Assembly (NCBI RefSeq): GCF_023347535.1
Contig: NZ_CP094473.1
Location: forward strand, 1,488,001-1,552,000
Direction: 5' to 3'
DNA from: Faecalibacterium sp. HTF-F
GTDB taxonomy: Bacteria > Bacillota > Clostridia > Oscillospirales > Ruminococcaceae
DNA length: 64,000 nucleotides
The translations under genes were made by a program, and so were the position numbers. The notes under the pieces were generated by a model, which saw only the letters and a program-made list of their open reading frames with translations, was not told where the DNA came from and ran no database searches. Below are positions 1 through 38,362 of the stretch, one piece after another. The first letter of the stretch is position 1. Each line of letters begins with the position of its first letter.

Positions 1-342
1 ACCGCACCCTACAGCCGCTGCCAGTTCCAAAAGCGCATTGTCTGCCGCTTCTCCGACCAGAAAAGAAAGCAGGATCAAAAGCAGCAGGAATAGCAGGACA
101 TCTGCATAGCAATGCGCCATCTGCCGGATCATTTCCAGCGGAGAAGCCGGCAAAAGGGAAAGCAGCGCTCCGACCGGATCGTGGACAAATGAATCCGCAT
201 CCTGCGGCGCAGCATTCAGATAGGGTTGCCAGAGCTCCTGCCCGGGCAGATCCTGCAGCCCGGCCGCCTGCGCACCCGGGACCGCAGACAAAACTCCGCA
301 GACGGCAAGCACAGCAGCGGACGCCTTTTGAAATAATTTCAT
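1..342 (-). CDS. spoIIIAE: Stage III sporulation protein AE, N-terminal part
   Basis: The first 114 codons of SpoIIIAE; the rest lies beyond the left edge. The reading frame is open from the ATG at 342 to base 1. It opens with a signal-type hydrophobic segment (MKLFQKASAAVLAVC...) ending near GAQA-A, and has another strongly hydrophobic helix at about residues 82-100. In the known family this is a polytopic membrane component of the SpoIIIA-SpoIIQ channel between mother cell and forespore. The start overlaps the spoIIIAD stop as ATGA, so translation is probably coupled. Identity rests mostly on its place in the AA-AB-AC-AD-AE order. Confidence 0.8.
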   Translation of the reverse strand, partial: MKLFQKASAAVLAVCGVLSAVPGAQAAGLQDLPGQELWQPYLNAAPQDADSFVHDPVGALLSLLPASPLEMIRQMAHCYADVLLFLLLLILLSFLVGEAADNALLELAAAVGCG

Positions 343-722
343 GCAGCAAGCCCCCAGATCCGTTGACAGATCTCCTCCAGCAAGGGGAATGCCGCTGCCA
401 GAACAAGGAGCCTCCCCGCCAAACCTGTACACCACGCCAGTGAATCTGCGCCTGCTTCTTCACACAGTGTCCGGGCGTAATCCGTAATCAGCAGGATCCC
501 TGCACAGCGCAGCAGACAGGAAAAGGCAGTACCATCCACCCGGCGGCTGAGTGCCCATACTCCCCGCATCAGATCTTGCGCAGCCGCGCCAAGCCTCAGC
601 AGTATAAATACTGCGGCACCGATCGAAAGCAAAAATGCATAAGACGGAGAATCCTTGCGCAGCAAAAGCTGTGCTGCCGCAAAAACGACTGCCGCCCCAA
701 GGATGGAAACGGAGGTACTCAT
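339..722 (-). CDS. spoIIIAD: Stage III sporulation protein AD
   Basis: A 127-residue, mostly hydrophobic protein with about four membrane segments, including one at residues 5-20 and one at 25-45, and a hydrophobic C-terminus. Size and composition match SpoIIIAD, a membrane component of the mother cell to forespore channel. It overlaps spoIIIAC at its start and spoIIIAE at its stop by four bases each (ATGA), typical of this operon. Start at 722 is fixed by the overlap. Confidence 0.85.
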   Translation of the reverse strand: MSTSVSILGAAVVFAAAQLLLRKDSPSYAFLLSIGAAVFILLRLGAAAQDLMRGVWALSRRVDGTAFSCLLRCAGILLITDYARTLCEEAGADSLAWCTGLAGRLLVLAAAFPLLEEICQRIWGLAA

Positions 723-913
723 AGCGCAAACAGCGACTTGATGGTGACAAACAGGACGCTGATCTGCTTGACAAGAATGGACAGCACTACGACAAGGCCT
801 GCAAGAGTGGTCATCATGGCCTGATCCTCCCGTCCGGAACGGATCAGCAGCTGATTCAGCACCGCCACAATGATGCCAATGGCTGCAATTTTAAAAACAA
901 GATCGATCTCCAA
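719..913 (-). CDS. spoIIIAC: Stage III sporulation protein AC
   Basis: A 64-residue protein with two predicted transmembrane helices (about residues 5-24 and 33-55) separated by a short charged loop (RSGREDQ). Length and two-helix layout match SpoIIIAC, a small membrane part of the SpoIIIA complex. It lies between spoIIIAB (18 bases upstream) and spoIIIAD (four-base overlap). The AGGAGG-like site just upstream supports the ATG at 913. Confidence 0.88.
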   Translation of the reverse strand: MEIDLVFKIAAIGIIVAVLNQLLIRSGREDQAMMTTLAGLVVVLSILVKQISVLFVTIKSLFAL

Positions 914-931
914 TTCTGCATCCTCCTGCGC

Positions 932-1390
932 TTACAAAAAAATCAGCGCCAGAACAGCTCCTGCCGCAAACCCCAGCCTGCAGGACAGGCCAGCACAGGC
1001 GGCTGCTTCCTGCTGAGCCTGCTGCAGAAACGCTTCAAAGCGCGCGGTATAGTAGTCCAGCCGTTCACACTCCTGCGCAGCTTCGCACTGGCCGAGGCCG
1101 GAAAAGCATTGTTCAAAGCAAAGCCGCTCCTCGGCGCGGAAGCTTGCAGGCGGCGCGAGAGCCTGCAATTTTTCCGCAGGCGTCAGCAGCCCTTCCTGTA
1201 TCAGACAGCGGCAGAGCAGCTCCATATCCGGCCTGCGGTATGCCACTTCCTGCCGGATGCGCCGCAGCAATTCCACAGTATGCCGCAGCTGCAGGATATG
1301 CTGCTCTTTTCCTGCCTGAAGGGCTGCTCCGGTCAGCCATCCGCACAGCGGAAGCAGCGCTGCTCCCACCCAATGAAACAGTTGGATCAT
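932..1390 (-). CDS. spoIIIAB: Stage III sporulation protein AB
   Basis: A 152-residue protein with an N-terminal membrane segment, a helical middle rich in Gln, Glu and Arg, and a hydrophobic C-terminal segment ending LALIFL. This layout fits SpoIIIAB, a GspF-like component of the SpoIIIA channel. Its start overlaps the spoIIIAA stop by four bases. Sequence conservation in this family is low, so the call leans on gene order. Confidence 0.85.
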   Translation of the reverse strand: MIQLFHWVGAALLPLCGWLTGAALQAGKEQHILQLRHTVELLRRIRQEVAYRRPDMELLCRCLIQEGLLTPAEKLQALAPPASFRAEERLCFEQCFSGLGQCEAAQECERLDYYTARFEAFLQQAQQEAAACAGLSCRLGFAAGAVLALIFL

Positions 1391-33753: not shown

Positions 33754-33837
33754 GCGAGGGTGGCGGAACTGGCAGACGCGCACGTTTGAGGTGCGTGTGG
33801 TTTATCCTTGGGGGTTCGAGTCCCCTCCCTCGCACCA
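33754..33837 (+). tRNA. tRNA-Leu (anticodon GAG)
   Basis: Class II tRNA: acceptor GCGAGGG/CCCTCGC with discriminator A and encoded CCA, anticodon stem CACGT/GCGTG with loop TTGAGGT (anticodon GAG), a long variable arm and T arm GGGG-TTCGAGT-CCCC. It borders the glycan locus. Confidence 0.95.
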
Positions 33838-33934: not shown

Positions 33935-33969
33935 GATTTTGCGGGAGCAGAAAAAACACCAACAACAAG

Positions 33970-34011
33970 ATCCCCTCTCTGACGGTACGTCCAGAACAGA
34001 GAGGGGATCTT
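33970..34011 (-). terminator. Hairpin at the end of the yicC-spoVM gene run
   Basis: A 13-bp stem GATCCCCTCTCTG/CAGAGAGGGGATC right after the spoVM stop. T-rich on the plus-strand side, weaker on the minus strand, but placed as the operon end. Confidence 0.6.
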
Positions 34012-34092
34012 TCAGTTTTCCTTTTTGATACCGAACAGCCTGCGCAGAATCCCGCGCAAGGCCTTGGGGCTCTGGATCACAATTACCTGCAT
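34012..34092 (-). CDS. spoVM: Stage V sporulation protein M, 26 residues
   Basis: A short gene of 26 codons encoding a peptide beginning MQVIVIQSPKALRGILRR and ending FGIKKEN. It has the length of Bacillus SpoVM, an amphipathic basic helix and the conserved Pro at residue 9 needed for sensing membrane curvature. In sporulating Firmicutes it lies directly after thiN, exactly as here (78 bases downstream). SpoVM anchors the coat protein SpoIVA on the forespore surface. AGGGAGA lies five bases before the ATG at 34092; an in-frame ATG at 34125 would add 11 residues but has a poor ribosome site. Confidence 0.85.
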   Translation of the reverse strand: MQVIVIQSPKALRGILRRLFGIKKEN

Positions 34093-34170
34093 ATGCTCTC
34101 CCTGCCTTTCCGTTTTCTGCTCCATCCTATGCGGGCAGCAGACAAAACGTTCCGGCAGAAGCAGCAGGCA

Positions 34171-34806
34171 TCAGTCCGGGATGGTCTCCACTGCCACCAG
34201 CGCACCGCTGCGGGTGCTGATGGTGATGCAGTCCGAACCTTCGGCGTACTCGTTGCTGACACCCAGCGGATACGCGGCGGTCAGCTCTGCGTTATCCAAC
34301 TCATAATAAGAGCCGTGTTCGCACACGCCCTCTGCCCTGCCCTCCATCGGAAAGGCCGAGAAAAAGAAATAATTCTCCTTCGGGTAGCGGCGGGTCTCGC
34401 CGGGCATCACGTAGGTGATGCGGCTGCGCTCGTCCAGCAGAGTGGTGCGCACGCCGCGCCGCTCCAGCCCAAGGCCGGTGCACAGGTTTGCAAGCGTATG
34501 CTCTACCCGTCTGCCACCAAGGCCGCCCAGCAGCAGCACCTCGTCAAAACCTTTTTCTGAGGCCAGCTTTGCGGCATACTCAGTGTCGGTATCATCCTTG
34601 ACGTGGGGCAGAACGATGATGTCGTCATCCTGCTTTTCCGGGCAGGGGGCGGTGTCAAAATCGCCCAGGATGATATCGGGCTTACAGCCCAGCGGGACAC
34701 AGTTGCGATAGCCTGCATCACAGGCAATGATAAAATCGTCCGGCCGCAGGGCCTTTGCCAGCTCCGGCGTGACCGGGCAGGCCGAAATGATCACACAGCG
34801 TGACAT
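34171..34806 (-). CDS. thiN: Thiamine diphosphokinase
   Basis: A 211-residue enzyme that makes thiamine diphosphate from thiamine and ATP. Family features: IIACDAGYRNC near residue 27, ILGDFDTAP near residue 46, DDTDTEYAAKLASEKGF near residue 71 and LLGGLGGRRVEHTLAN near residue 91. It follows rsgA by 18 bases. In most Firmicutes rpe lies between rsgA and thiN; here it does not. Confidence 0.93.
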   Translation of the reverse strand: MSRCVIISACPVTPELAKALRPDDFIIACDAGYRNCVPLGCKPDIILGDFDTAPCPEKQDDDIIVLPHVKDDTDTEYAAKLASEKGFDEVLLLGGLGGRRVEHTLANLCTGLGLERRGVRTTLLDERSRITYVMPGETRRYPKENYFFFSAFPMEGRAEGVCEHGSYYELDNAELTAAYPLGVSNEYAEGSDCITISTRSGALVAVETIPD

Positions 34807-34824: not shown

Positions 34825-35703
34825 TTATACTTTCGGGCGCTGCCAATCCTTCACGTCCTTGACTTCCTCGTACATGGCGCAGTAGCTGTCGTACCGGGTC
34901 TGAGAGAGCCTGCCATCTGCCAGTGCCGCGCGCACGGCGCAGCCTTTTTCGCTGCGGTGGGAGCAGCCGGTGAACTGGCACTGTCCCAGATAAGGCCCGA
35001 ACTCCGGGAACGCATGCTCCAAATTTTCCTTGGAGATGAACCCGGCGCGGTTCGCTTCCAGACTGGCAAAGCCCGGCGTATCCGCAATGCGCCCGCCAAA
35101 GGCTTCAAAGATGGTCACCTCACGGGTGGTGTGGCGGCCGCGGCCCAGCTTCTGGCTGATGGCGCTGGTCTCCCGCTCGGCTTCCGGAAGCAGATGGTTC
35201 AGCAGGGTGGACTTTCCCACGCCGGAGTTGCCGCAGAAGGCGCACAGCCGGCCATTGATCCACTGCTTCACCTCGTCCAGTCCTGCACCGGTCTCATAGT
35301 CGATGCGGATGAACGGCAGGGTGGATCTTTCGTAGGCAGAGCGCAGGAACTCTGCCTCGGCCAGATCGCCCTTGGTGCACACGATCACCGGCTGCACGCC
35401 CTTGTCCACCGCAATGGCAGAAAGCTTATCCAGCACCAGCGTGCTGGGGGTGGGCTGGGTGGTGCTTGCCACCAGAAACAGCAGATCGAGGTTTGCCATC
35501 GGGGGGCGCACAAAAACGTTCTTTCGCGGTGCGATCTCCGCAATGACCGAAACACCGTTCTCGGTTTCCAGCGTCACTTCGTCGCCTGCAACCGGCGTGA
35601 TCTTCTGTTTGCGGAAGATGCCGCGGGGCTTGCACTCCACAATGCCTTCCGGCGTTTTTACGTAGTAAAAGCCGCCGATGCCCTTTGTGATATATCCTTT
35701 CAT
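34825..35703 (-). CDS. rsgA: Ribosome small subunit GTPase RsgA
   Basis: A 292-residue circularly permuted GTPase that assists 30S maturation. An N-terminal OB-fold is followed by the G-motifs in permuted order: TKGD near residue 110, GNSGVGKST near residue 168 and DTPGF near residue 215. The C-terminal zinc site is CQFTGCSH with a later Cys. Start ATG at 35703 with GGAGG six bases upstream; 11 bases separate it from prkC. Confidence 0.95.
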   Translation of the reverse strand: MKGYITKGIGGFYYVKTPEGIVECKPRGIFRKQKITPVAGDEVTLETENGVSVIAEIAPRKNVFVRPPMANLDLLFLVASTTQPTPSTLVLDKLSAIAVDKGVQPVIVCTKGDLAEAEFLRSAYERSTLPFIRIDYETGAGLDEVKQWINGRLCAFCGNSGVGKSTLLNHLLPEAERETSAISQKLGRGRHTTREVTIFEAFGGRIADTPGFASLEANRAGFISKENLEHAFPEFGPYLGQCQFTGCSHRSEKGCAVRAALADGRLSQTRYDSYCAMYEEVKDVKDWQRPKV

Positions 35704-35714
35704 GTGCGCCTCCG

Positions 35715-37622
35715 TCAGCTCAGCAGCGAGGACCACCAGTCGGTCAGAGGAGTCTGGGAAGGCTCCCCGCTGCCCGCTGTGCCCTGCTCACCACTCGCTG
35801 TTGTGCTGGAGGAAGAGGAGGACGAACCACCGCCGAACAGGCCGCTCCACCAGTCGCCGCCTGTCGTGCTGTCGCTGGGTGCTTCCGGTTCCGGTGCAGG
35901 CTCCGGCCCGGCACTGACCACGATGTTCACTCGGCCATTCAGCTTTGCGGTAGCGCCTGCCGCCGGGTTCTGACTGATGACGGTGCCCACCGGCTGGTCG
36001 CTGTACTGCTCAGACTGGCTGCCCAGACCCAGATGATTCTGCACCAGCAGGGTGCGGGCATCCTCGGCGCTCATGCCAATGAGCGAGGGCACCTTGGTGG
36101 TGGTCGCCACCTGCGGGCGGCTGATATAGACCACTATCGTGCTGCCTGCTGCCACCTGACTGCCTGCTGCCGGGTCGGTGCGGATGACCGCACCGGATGC
36201 CACTGTAGTATCCACAGCCTGCGTCACCAGCACCGAGACTCCCAGATCTTTAAGCTGCTGCTCTGCATCTGCCTGCACATAGTTGGTCAGATCGGGCACC
36301 GTGACATACTGGGTGCCCAGACTGACAGTAAGGGTCACATTCTGGCCCTCACGCACCGTGCGGCCGGAGACCGGCGACTGCTTGTAGATATAGCCCGCCG
36401 CATAGTCGCTGTTGTATTCCTGCTCCCAGGTAACACTGATCTGACCGGAGACAACCTGCTCGGTGGCGGCAGCCTCGTCCTGCGTCATTCCGATATAATC
36501 GCCCAGCGTGATATCTGCTTTGTTGTTCATCAGGTTGGAGGAGTCGTTCAGGATCATCCAGCACAGTGCAAGACAGGCAAGGGCAAATGCAATGGTGATG
36601 CCCAGCAGCGCCGGAAGATAAATGGTACGGCGCTTCTTTTTGCGGGATGCAGTCTTTTTGCTGCGGGGCGCAGGTTTTTCGGCAGGTCGATTTGTGCGGT
36701 TCTGGCTCATGGTACGTTTCACCACCTTTTCGGGTGCATCTTCTGTAATATATTTGTACTCGAACATCACGGAGGGATTCTGCACGTAGGCGTCCAGTGC
36801 ATCCAGCATCTCGCGGGCAGAAGCATAGCGGTTCTGCGGCAGCTTTGCCATGGCTTTTTCGGTGATCTCCACCAGTGCGTTCGGTACCTCCGGCGCGATC
36901 TCGTGCAGAGACTTCGGCTTATCCGAGATCTGCTTGATGGCAACCTCCACCATGTCGTCTGCATCAAAGGGCAGATGACCGCTGAGCATCTCGTACATCA
37001 TCACGCCCACCGAGTAGATATCGCTGGTGCAGTCGGTCTCATCACCTTTGGCCTGCTCCGGGCTGATATAATGCACGCTGCCCATGGCCTTGCCGCTGAG
37101 CAGCTGATTCTCGGCCCGGGAGATGCGCGCGATGCCAAAATCCATCATGCGCAGCTGACCATTGTCCAGAAGCATGATGTTCTGGGGCTTGATGTCCCGG
37201 TGCACCACACCGTTGGCATGGGCATGTTCCAGCGCCTTTAAGATCTGAGAGATAAAATGCACGGTCTCCCGGTTGGTCAGCTTGCCGCCGCGCTGGTTGA
37301 GGTACTCGCGCAGGGTCATGCCGTCCACATATTCCATCACGATATACTGCAGATCATCGTTCACCGAAACATCATATACCTTGACGATGTTCGGGTGGTT
37401 CAGCAGCGAGATGGCCTTGGATTCATTTTTAAAACGGCGCACAAGATCCGGGTCATGCATATACTCCTGCCGCAGCACCTTGACCGCCACCACTGTCCCG
37501 GCGGGAACAGGGCCGTTCTGGCCAAGCATGACCGCCTTGTAGACGTTCGCCATGCCGCCGGAGCCGATCAGCTCCTTCACCTCATACAGGCCATCCAGCT
37601 TTTTGCCGATCAGGTTGTCCAT
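35715..37622 (-). CDS. prkC: PASTA-domain serine/threonine protein kinase
   Basis: A 635-residue membrane kinase. The cytoplasmic kinase domain has GSGGMANVYKA, HRDIKPQNIM near residue 130 and DFGIAR; a transmembrane helix follows at about residues 345-367, then three PASTA repeats (about 378-445, 446-513 and 514-582) that bind muropeptides. An unusual Ser- and Trp-rich tail of about 55 residues holds GDWWSGLFGGG and TDWWSSLLS. It phosphorylates targets in response to cell-wall signals, opposed by the PrpC phosphatase. Start at 37622 overlaps the prpC stop. Confidence 0.95.
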   Translation of the reverse strand: MDNLIGKKLDGLYEVKELIGSGGMANVYKAVMLGQNGPVPAGTVVAVKVLRQEYMHDPDLVRRFKNESKAISLLNHPNIVKVYDVSVNDDLQYIVMEYVDGMTLREYLNQRGGKLTNRETVHFISQILKALEHAHANGVVHRDIKPQNIMLLDNGQLRMMDFGIARISRAENQLLSGKAMGSVHYISPEQAKGDETDCTSDIYSVGVMMYEMLSGHLPFDADDMVEVAIKQISDKPKSLHEIAPEVPNALVEITEKAMAKLPQNRYASAREMLDALDAYVQNPSVMFEYKYITEDAPEKVVKRTMSQNRTNRPAEKPAPRSKKTASRKKKRRTIYLPALLGITIAFALACLALCWMILNDSSNLMNNKADITLGDYIGMTQDEAAATEQVVSGQISVTWEQEYNSDYAAGYIYKQSPVSGRTVREGQNVTLTVSLGTQYVTVPDLTNYVQADAEQQLKDLGVSVLVTQAVDTTVASGAVIRTDPAAGSQVAAGSTIVVYISRPQVATTTKVPSLIGMSAEDARTLLVQNHLGLGSQSEQYSDQPVGTVISQNPAAGATAKLNGRVNIVVSAGPEPAPEPEAPSDSTTGGDWWSGLFGGGSSSSSSSTTASGEQGTAGSGEPSQTPLTDWWSSLLS

Positions 37623-38362
37623 CAGCGCACCTCCTCCACACACAGAAGCAGCGCGGTGATGTTATCCGGGCCGCCGTTTTCGTTGGCAGTGCGGATCAGC
37701 AGATCCGGCAGATCATAGAACTTTCCCGTGCGCAGCAGCTGTTCCAGCTGTTCTTTGGGCACCGCATTGGTCAGGCCGTCCGAGCACAGCAGCAGGATAT
37801 CTCCGCTGTGCAGCTGTGCGGTGGCAAACTCCGGTTCCAGCCGGTAGTCCACACCCAGAGCACGGGTGATGATGTTCTTCTGGGGGTGATGCTCGGCCTC
37901 CTCCACGGTAATGGTGCCGCAGTCCACCAGCTCCTGCACGTAGGAGTGGTCGTGGGTGAGCTGGGCAAGCTGTCCATCCCGGTACAGGTACGCCCGCGAG
38001 TCACCTGCATGGCACAGATACACCCTGCCAGAGCGCACCAGTGCGCACACCGCCGTAGTGCCCATGCCTGCCAGTGCTTCCTCCCGCAGGGCCTTCTGGA
38101 ACACAAAGCGGTTGGCGCTGAGCAGTGCTTTTTTCAGGAAGGTCTCTTCCTCGCCGGGCAGGCACTTGGAAGCATACTGCTCCTGAAAGCAGCGCTCAAT
38201 GACATCACATGCGCTCTCACTGGCTTCCCTGCCGCCGCGTGCACCGCCCATGCCGTCACACACCAGCAGCCATGCGGCATCGCCGGGCAGCTCTCCTGCG
38301 CGATAATCGTCCTGATTATCCTGCCGGACCCGGCCGACATCCGTTTTTCCTGCAAGTTTCAT
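37622..38362 (-). CDS. prpC: PP2C-type protein phosphatase
   Basis: A 246-residue metal-dependent Ser/Thr phosphatase. Metal-ligand motifs are RQDNQDDY near residue 13, VCDGMGGARGG near residue 35, HAGDSRAYL near residue 115 and CSDGLTNAV near residue 192. It reverses PrkC phosphorylation. Its stop overlaps the prkC start, so the two are translationally coupled. Confidence 0.95.
   Translation of the reverse strand: MKLAGKTDVGRVRQDNQDDYRAGELPGDAAWLLVCDGMGGARGGREASESACDVIERCFQEQYASKCLPGEEETFLKKALLSANRFVFQKALREEALAGMGTTAVCALVRSGRVYLCHAGDSRAYLYRDGQLAQLTHDHSYVQELVDCGTITVEEAEHHPQKNIITRALGVDYRLEPEFATAQLHSGDILLLCSDGLTNAVPKEQLEQLLRTGKFYDLPDLLIRTANENGGPDNITALLLCVEEVR

Follow-up and report, generated by a model that had tools for sequence, protein, structure and literature searches.

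A conserved spoVM gene in Faecalibacterium, a genus described as non-spore-forming

The spoVM locus

The window analyzed here is a 64,000-nt stretch of the genome of Faecalibacterium sp. HTF-F (contig NZ_CP094473.1, positions 1,488,001 to 1,552,000). On its minus strand, a complete ATG-to-TGA frame runs from 34092 to 34012 and encodes a product of 26 aa with Pro at position 9 (Table 1), while the plus strand of 34012–34092, in the given register, is an open stretch with neither an ATG start nor a stop. An earlier reading made from the letters of the window (the sequence-only reading) had placed a 26-codon spoVM gene after a prkC-rsgA-thiN run. Gene and position were confirmed, with the strand, which it had left unstated, being minus, and Pfam domains identified all three preceding genes on the same strand. 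A tRNA-Leu gene with the anticodon GAG lies just past spoVM (window 33754–33837, plus strand).

Table 1 Features of the spoVM locus and of related loci in the same genome. Plain numbers are window positions; C1 and L numbers are our own contig and locus handles.
Feature	Position	Strand	Details
inverted repeat	33967..34011	minus	two 15-base arms, 15-base loop; read from sequence
spoVM	34012..34092	minus	26 codons + TGA stop; ATG at 34092-34090
ribosome-binding region GAAAGGCAGGGAG	34098..34110	minus	read from sequence
promoter-like element GGAACGTTTT-...-TAGGAT	34124..34153	minus	pattern match
thiN, thiamine pyrophosphokinase	34171..34806	minus	Pfam PF04263 and PF04265
rsgA, ribosome small-subunit GTPase	34825..35736	minus	Pfam PF03193 and PF16745
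prkC, PASTA-domain Ser/Thr kinase	35715..37643	minus	Pfam PF00069 and PF03793
PP2C-type phosphatase	37622..38362	minus	Pfam PF13672
spoIIIAD	342..722	minus	TIGR02849 below cut-off
spoIIIAC	722..913	minus	TIGR02848 over cut-off
spoIIIAB	935..1390	minus	PF09548 over cut-off; no NCBIfam match
spoIIIAA	1390..2289	minus	TIGR02858 below cut-off; PF19568 over cut-off
gpr	C1:243609-244193 (L218:7487-8332)		
sigK N-terminal half	C1:2013930-2014292 (L044, L135)		
serine recombinase, 641 aa	C1:2042646-2044568		overlaps start of sigK C-terminal part
sigK C-terminal part	C1:2044411-2044791 (L145, L217)		open frame

Position 34092 is the likely start of spoVM, because the residues 5' of it differ or run into a stop in other genomes. 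An alternative in-frame ATG at 34125, which would give a 37-aa product, was disfavored: the extension varied between genomes and in several of them was stopped within 6 to 12 codons. A motif near GAAAGGnGGG preceded most of the Faecalibacterium spoVM copies that were read, in agreement with the good ribosome site claimed by the sequence-only reading.

Of 27 upstream regions from Faecalibacterium, 16 contained the promoter-like pattern, and in 13 of these the second box was TATAAT or TATACT. A scan of the spoVM upstream region with the sigma-70 consensus gave no match. Reading the element as a SigE promoter was rejected, as it was not found before other sporulation genes of the window genome (spoIVA, sipL, spoIIIAA, spoIIGA, sigG, spoIVB, spo0A, spoIIAA, gpr, spoIIP and spoVAC, the start of the last being approximate) and was likewise missing before thiN. 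The sole match to the pattern outside spoVM in the tested upstream regions lay before prkC, within coding sequence. Directly 3' of the spoVM stop is an inverted repeat, a possible terminator or RNA end; its loop of 15 is longer than the 3–8 bases allowed in our hairpin scan, which does not list it.

Identity of the 26-residue peptide

The sequence-only reading had proposed a profile search as a check on the identity of the peptide. In a search against 18,950 models, the similarity was present: the peptide matched the NCBIfam model SpoVM_broad (NF033436) over positions 1–26 of 26 (E = 5.4e-7), though its score of 29.5 bits was below the curated cut-off of 31, which serves to assign names and does not define a biological trait. 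When ten orthologs were scanned singly, five passed this cut-off (four of the nine from Faecalibacterium), and all 25 members of our alignment A1 matched the model at E up to 1. The Pfam model PF08183 gave no match to the window peptide. Searched alone against PDB sequences at E up to 10, the peptide had no match either; the A1 profile, searched against 177,635 PDB sequences at the same limit, recovered a single weak match (E = 0.2), the SpoVM of Bacillus subtilis (2mvh).

SpoVM proteins are described as very short, with fewer than 30 aa and 26 in B. subtilis, and Pro9 is the only residue conserved across all the homologs shown in PMC5607322. The window product has 26 aa and carries Pro9, as does every member of A1; the 80 named loci discussed below were fetched with a pattern that included Pro9 and thus provide no independent test of this residue. 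The peptide has a net charge of +5, and the hydrophobic moment of residues 10–24 was 0.588 compared with a shuffled mean of 0.297, a value reached by 3.9% of 5000 shuffles (a weak test). These properties bear out the earlier description of a basic amphipathic peptide with Pro at position 9. According to Galperin et al., SpoVM is rarely recognized in annotation, and its role in clostridia was open at the time of that paper (PMC3533761).

Conservation and selection of spoVM

We searched 61 genomes, comprising 31 of Faecalibacterium (G000–G030) and 30 others of the family and order (G031–G060). At E up to 10, the peptide had matches in 59 of the 61 genomes, including all 31 of Faecalibacterium and 28 of the 30 others. 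The weakest Faecalibacterium match (E = 0.005) came from a copy truncated at a contig end. Some of the 28 matches in other genera were weak (up to E = 1), and five had a stop inside the aligned stretch; G047 and G053, where a peptide match was absent at E up to 10, had matches to SpoIVA. Among 72,556 plasmid records, tblastn with the peptide at E up to 10 matched two, the better at E = 0.01; among 50,697 phage records it also matched two, with a best E of 0.7.

Disruption of the frame in relatives was a point on which the sequence-only reading could be checked, and none was found: the 31 Faecalibacterium genomes yielded 30 complete frames, all of which were open and started with ATG, and in the remaining genome (G018) a contig end removes the start of a frame that is otherwise open. 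The frames were also intact in all of the 80 named loci, which were kept from 432 confirmed loci and selected by similarity and the Pro9-including pattern. For 27 Faecalibacterium sequences (24 of them distinct; G004, G013, G017 and G018 were left out), mean pS was 0.60 and pN was 0.154, a ratio of about 0.26 that is only indicative because pS is near saturation. These values bear on the reading of the gene as a relic, in which a true SpoVM persists after a recent loss of sporulation while the remaining genes decay or serve minor roles. A gene in that state is not expected to stay intact at such divergence, and the strong conservation and the pN/pS ratio both oppose simple decay.

Gene order around spoVM

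In 69 named loci, 4.5 kb or more of upstream sequence was available; prkC and rsgA were each found upstream on the same strand in 60 of them, and thiN in 44. Downstream sequence of 3.5 kb or more was available in 68, of which 19 had sipL within 400 bases and 13 had spoIVA within 2 kb. The neighbors were sought by tblastn at 1e-6, and because most queries came from Faecalibacterium, the counts leave out distant copies. In the 15 named Faecalibacterium loci, sipL was downstream in 11, with spoIVA also present in seven. One example is G009 (L069, L136), in which the order is prkC-rsgA-thiN-spoVM-sipL-spoIVA and SipL was recognized by its SPOCS and LysM domains. In G034 (L137), which belongs to another genus, spoVM, sipL and spoIVA are neighbors, and ~3 kb with three other frames lies between spoVM and thiN.

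The order spoVM-sipL-spoIVA was found in Faecalibacterium (L058, L069, L070, L071, L073, L085, L086) and in Gemmiger (L066, L067). These loci share with the window a one-strand prkC-rsgA-thiN-spoVM arrangement in which thiN adjoins spoVM (for L085, the sequence covered does not include prkC). The window genome differs from them in that sipL (C1:1438456) and spoIVA (C1:1323374) are located elsewhere and neither follows spoVM. Since spoVM, sipL and spoIVA adjoin in the other loci, part of the genus has both expected partners beside spoVM.

The frame could in principle be fortuitous, or encode another short basic peptide such as a leader, a toxin-like or a regulatory peptide, given that ORFs of 26 codons are common and many frames of similar size occur in the region. 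The profile E value, the conservation of the frame across the genus, the pN/pS ratio, the position after thiN and the presence of partners together make this vanishingly improbable, and we rejected both a chance ORF and a leader peptide.

Sporulation genes elsewhere in the genome and genus

The genome that contains the window also encodes SpoIVA, the expected partner of SpoVM, with a score of 662 bits and all three Pfam domains, and a SipL in which the SPOCS domain was found. In this SipL (L212:8346-9863), Pfam finds no LysM domain, whereas the SipL proteins of G009 and G034 have one. The LysM domain of Clostridioides difficile SipL is reported to bind SpoIVA (PMC6436350).

Among the regulators, Spo0A and SpoIIAB were over their cut-offs. 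SigG was above the NF006071 cut-off and below that of TIGR02850, SigE was a best hit 1.4 bits short of the nearer cut-off, and SigF was a best hit well under its cut-off; these three sigma factors were classified in the window genome only. SpoIIAA was a best hit under the cut-off, and SpoIIGA was under the NCBIfam cut-off and over the Pfam one. SpoIVB, SpoIIP, SpoVAD and Gpr were all over their cut-offs, and SpoVAC/AEB was matched. From the spoIIIA operon, AA to AE and AH were recognized; the frame between spoIIIAE and spoIIIAH had no match, hence AF and AG were not recognized.

The sequence-only reading had suggested looking for spoIVA, spo0A, sigE and sigF in the full genome. All four are there, sigE and sigF, like sigG, by best hit. 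Its suggestion of retained sporulation machinery is therefore supported by these genes together with sigG and most of spoIIIA. A SpoVM that had lost its partners was also considered and is refuted by the finding of SpoIVA, Spo0A and SipL.

Across the genus, SpoIVA and SipL were each present in 31 of 31 genomes, Spo0A was over the cut-off in 30 of 31, and SpoVAC/AEB was found in 28 of 31, a distribution that also speaks against the gene being a relic. SpoIID-domain matches with E below 1e-13 were found in 28 of 31 Faecalibacterium genomes, and these need not be SpoIID because non-spore-forming control genomes match too. A group including Faecalibacterium has been said to lack SpoIID (PMC7924749). 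The coat-base set is kept in Faecalibacterium, and the window genome combines it with Spo0A, SigE, SigF, SigG, SpoIIIA, SpoIVB, SpoIIP and SpoVA; this points to a coherent developmental programme in the genus, which standard annotation may partly hide.

Small acid-soluble proteins, Gpr and the split sigK

At E up to 1e-3, alpha/beta SASPs (PF00269) were detected in none of the 31 Faecalibacterium genomes, compared with 27 of the 30 genomes of other genera. The protease Gpr, whose substrates in other species are SASPs, was found in 26 of 31 Faecalibacterium genomes and 26 of the 30 others, with scores of 101–119 bits in Faecalibacterium against 165–237 bits in the other genera. In the window genome, two Asp-containing motifs of Gpr align with those of four other genera, and we take them to hold the catalytic Asp residues. 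As Gpr is kept with these aligned motifs, Faecalibacterium may have diverged SASPs.

In the window genome sigK is split, its two pieces lying on one strand at a distance of 30 kb. The ~30 kb between them carries restriction-helicase, Fic, macro-domain and RepA-type genes, and a large serine recombinase gene lies at the far end (Table 1). The element that splits sigK looks like a skin element; we presume that its sigK/recombinase layout is that of the skin element, as in B. subtilis and C. difficile. In sigK, the C-terminal part stops after ISRSYV; the final residues that relatives show beyond this point were not found when sought in 51 kb of the region. Four other Faecalibacterium genomes (G030, G027, G012 and G006; L225-L230, L233, L234) have a complete sigK and a near-identical N-terminal half on the same strand, 31 to 102 kb apart, as if an element entering sigK brought its own 5' half.

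The missing SASP matches and the split sigK count against a completed spore. They also fit the relic reading, as do the early end of the sigK C-terminal part, the low Gpr scores, the SipL of the window genome, in which Pfam finds no LysM domain unlike in two relatives, and the description of the species as non-spore-forming. Weighed against the selection on spoVM and the genus-wide retention of its partners, we regard a relic as possible, if unlikely.

The sequence-only reading had also raised a new use for the peptide, which keeps some probability because alpha/beta SASP matches are absent in the genus. Such a repurposed programme would comprise asymmetric division, engulfment and a SpoVM-SpoIVA-SipL shell around a cell that lacks a SASP-packed dormant core, giving a short-lived resting cell or dispersal form. 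The genus-wide retention of coat-base genes alongside undetected alpha/beta SASPs speaks for it. However, SpoVA and Gpr, which belong to dormancy and germination, are also kept, the Gpr of the window genome retains its aligned Asp motifs, and the SASPs are perhaps diverged rather than absent; we consider repurposing improbable.

Significance and proposed role

Taken together, the 26-codon frame is very probably an intact, selected SpoVM ortholog within a kept coat-base and developmental programme. By analogy with B. subtilis and C. difficile, the peptide would be produced in the mother cell and would lie as an amphipathic helix, kinked at Pro9, in the convex forespore membrane, where it would anchor the ATPase SpoIVA; SpoIVA and SipL would form the base of the spore coat. 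In B. subtilis, SpoVM is described as embedding in the forespore membrane, binding SpoIVA and allowing SpoIVA to encase the forespore (PMC6436350). Expression, localization and function of this kind in Faecalibacterium are likewise proposed by analogy, and the same job is most likely because the SpoVM/SpoIVA/SipL set is kept under selection.

Faecalibacterium has been described as non-spore-forming (PMC6295017), as has F. taiwanense (PMC11261667), although a passing remark in one review counts F. prausnitzii among the spore-formers (PMC8953710). F. prausnitzii accounts for up to 15% of gut bacteria and is extremely oxygen-sensitive (PMC6295017). Because it is both extremely oxygen-sensitive and described as non-spore-forming, we regard its transmission route as an open question. 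The Ruminococcaceae are bimodal for a 66-gene sporulation signature in a study whose main text gives no class for Faecalibacterium (PMC8340488). Another study predicted spore formation for 1 of the 34 Oscillospirales genomes in one host set (PMC12536801); Faecalibacterium is not named in the cited text, and the prediction speaks against widespread hidden sporulation in this order. We found no paper in the open-licence literature that treats SpoVM together with Faecalibacterium.

An intact SpoVM across the sampled members of a genus described as non-spore-forming means that sporulation may be hidden, recently lost or put to another use. We tentatively suggest, as a somewhat doubtful possibility, that Faecalibacterium runs a genuine sporulation-type programme under untried conditions and without classical alpha/beta SASPs, yielding an atypical spore or another enclosed form. 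If so, this form could explain the host-to-host passage of an extremely oxygen-sensitive gut bacterium. With SpoVM intact and SpoIVA, SipL and Spo0A kept, the idea of a hidden or altered programme of sporulation can be tested directly. The same findings show that a selected gene of 26 aa can be narrowly missed by gene naming, and that coat-base genes can stay intact while alpha/beta SASPs go undetected.

Comparison with known systems

C. difficile is one comparison: like Faecalibacterium, it has a clostridial SpoVM and encodes SpoIVA and SipL as well. SigE is reported to control all three in that species, in which SpoVM is largely unnecessary for making spores (PMC5607322).

Compared with B. 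subtilis SpoVM (2mvh), 8 of 20 aligned residues of the window peptide are identical. The two differ at position 2, which is K in B. subtilis and Q in the window peptide. B. subtilis requires K2 to form the cortex, although the residue is not universal (PMC5607322); Q was found in 28 of the 30 complete Faecalibacterium copies, and the 80 named loci had K in 59 and Q in 21. The hosts differ as well, in that Faecalibacterium, unlike B. subtilis, is described as non-spore-forming. Residues I6 and I15, which B. subtilis SpoVM needs (PMC5607322), are both kept in the window peptide, and the two peptides further share the length of 26 residues, Pro9, K10, L12, G14 and the character of a basic amphipathic helix.
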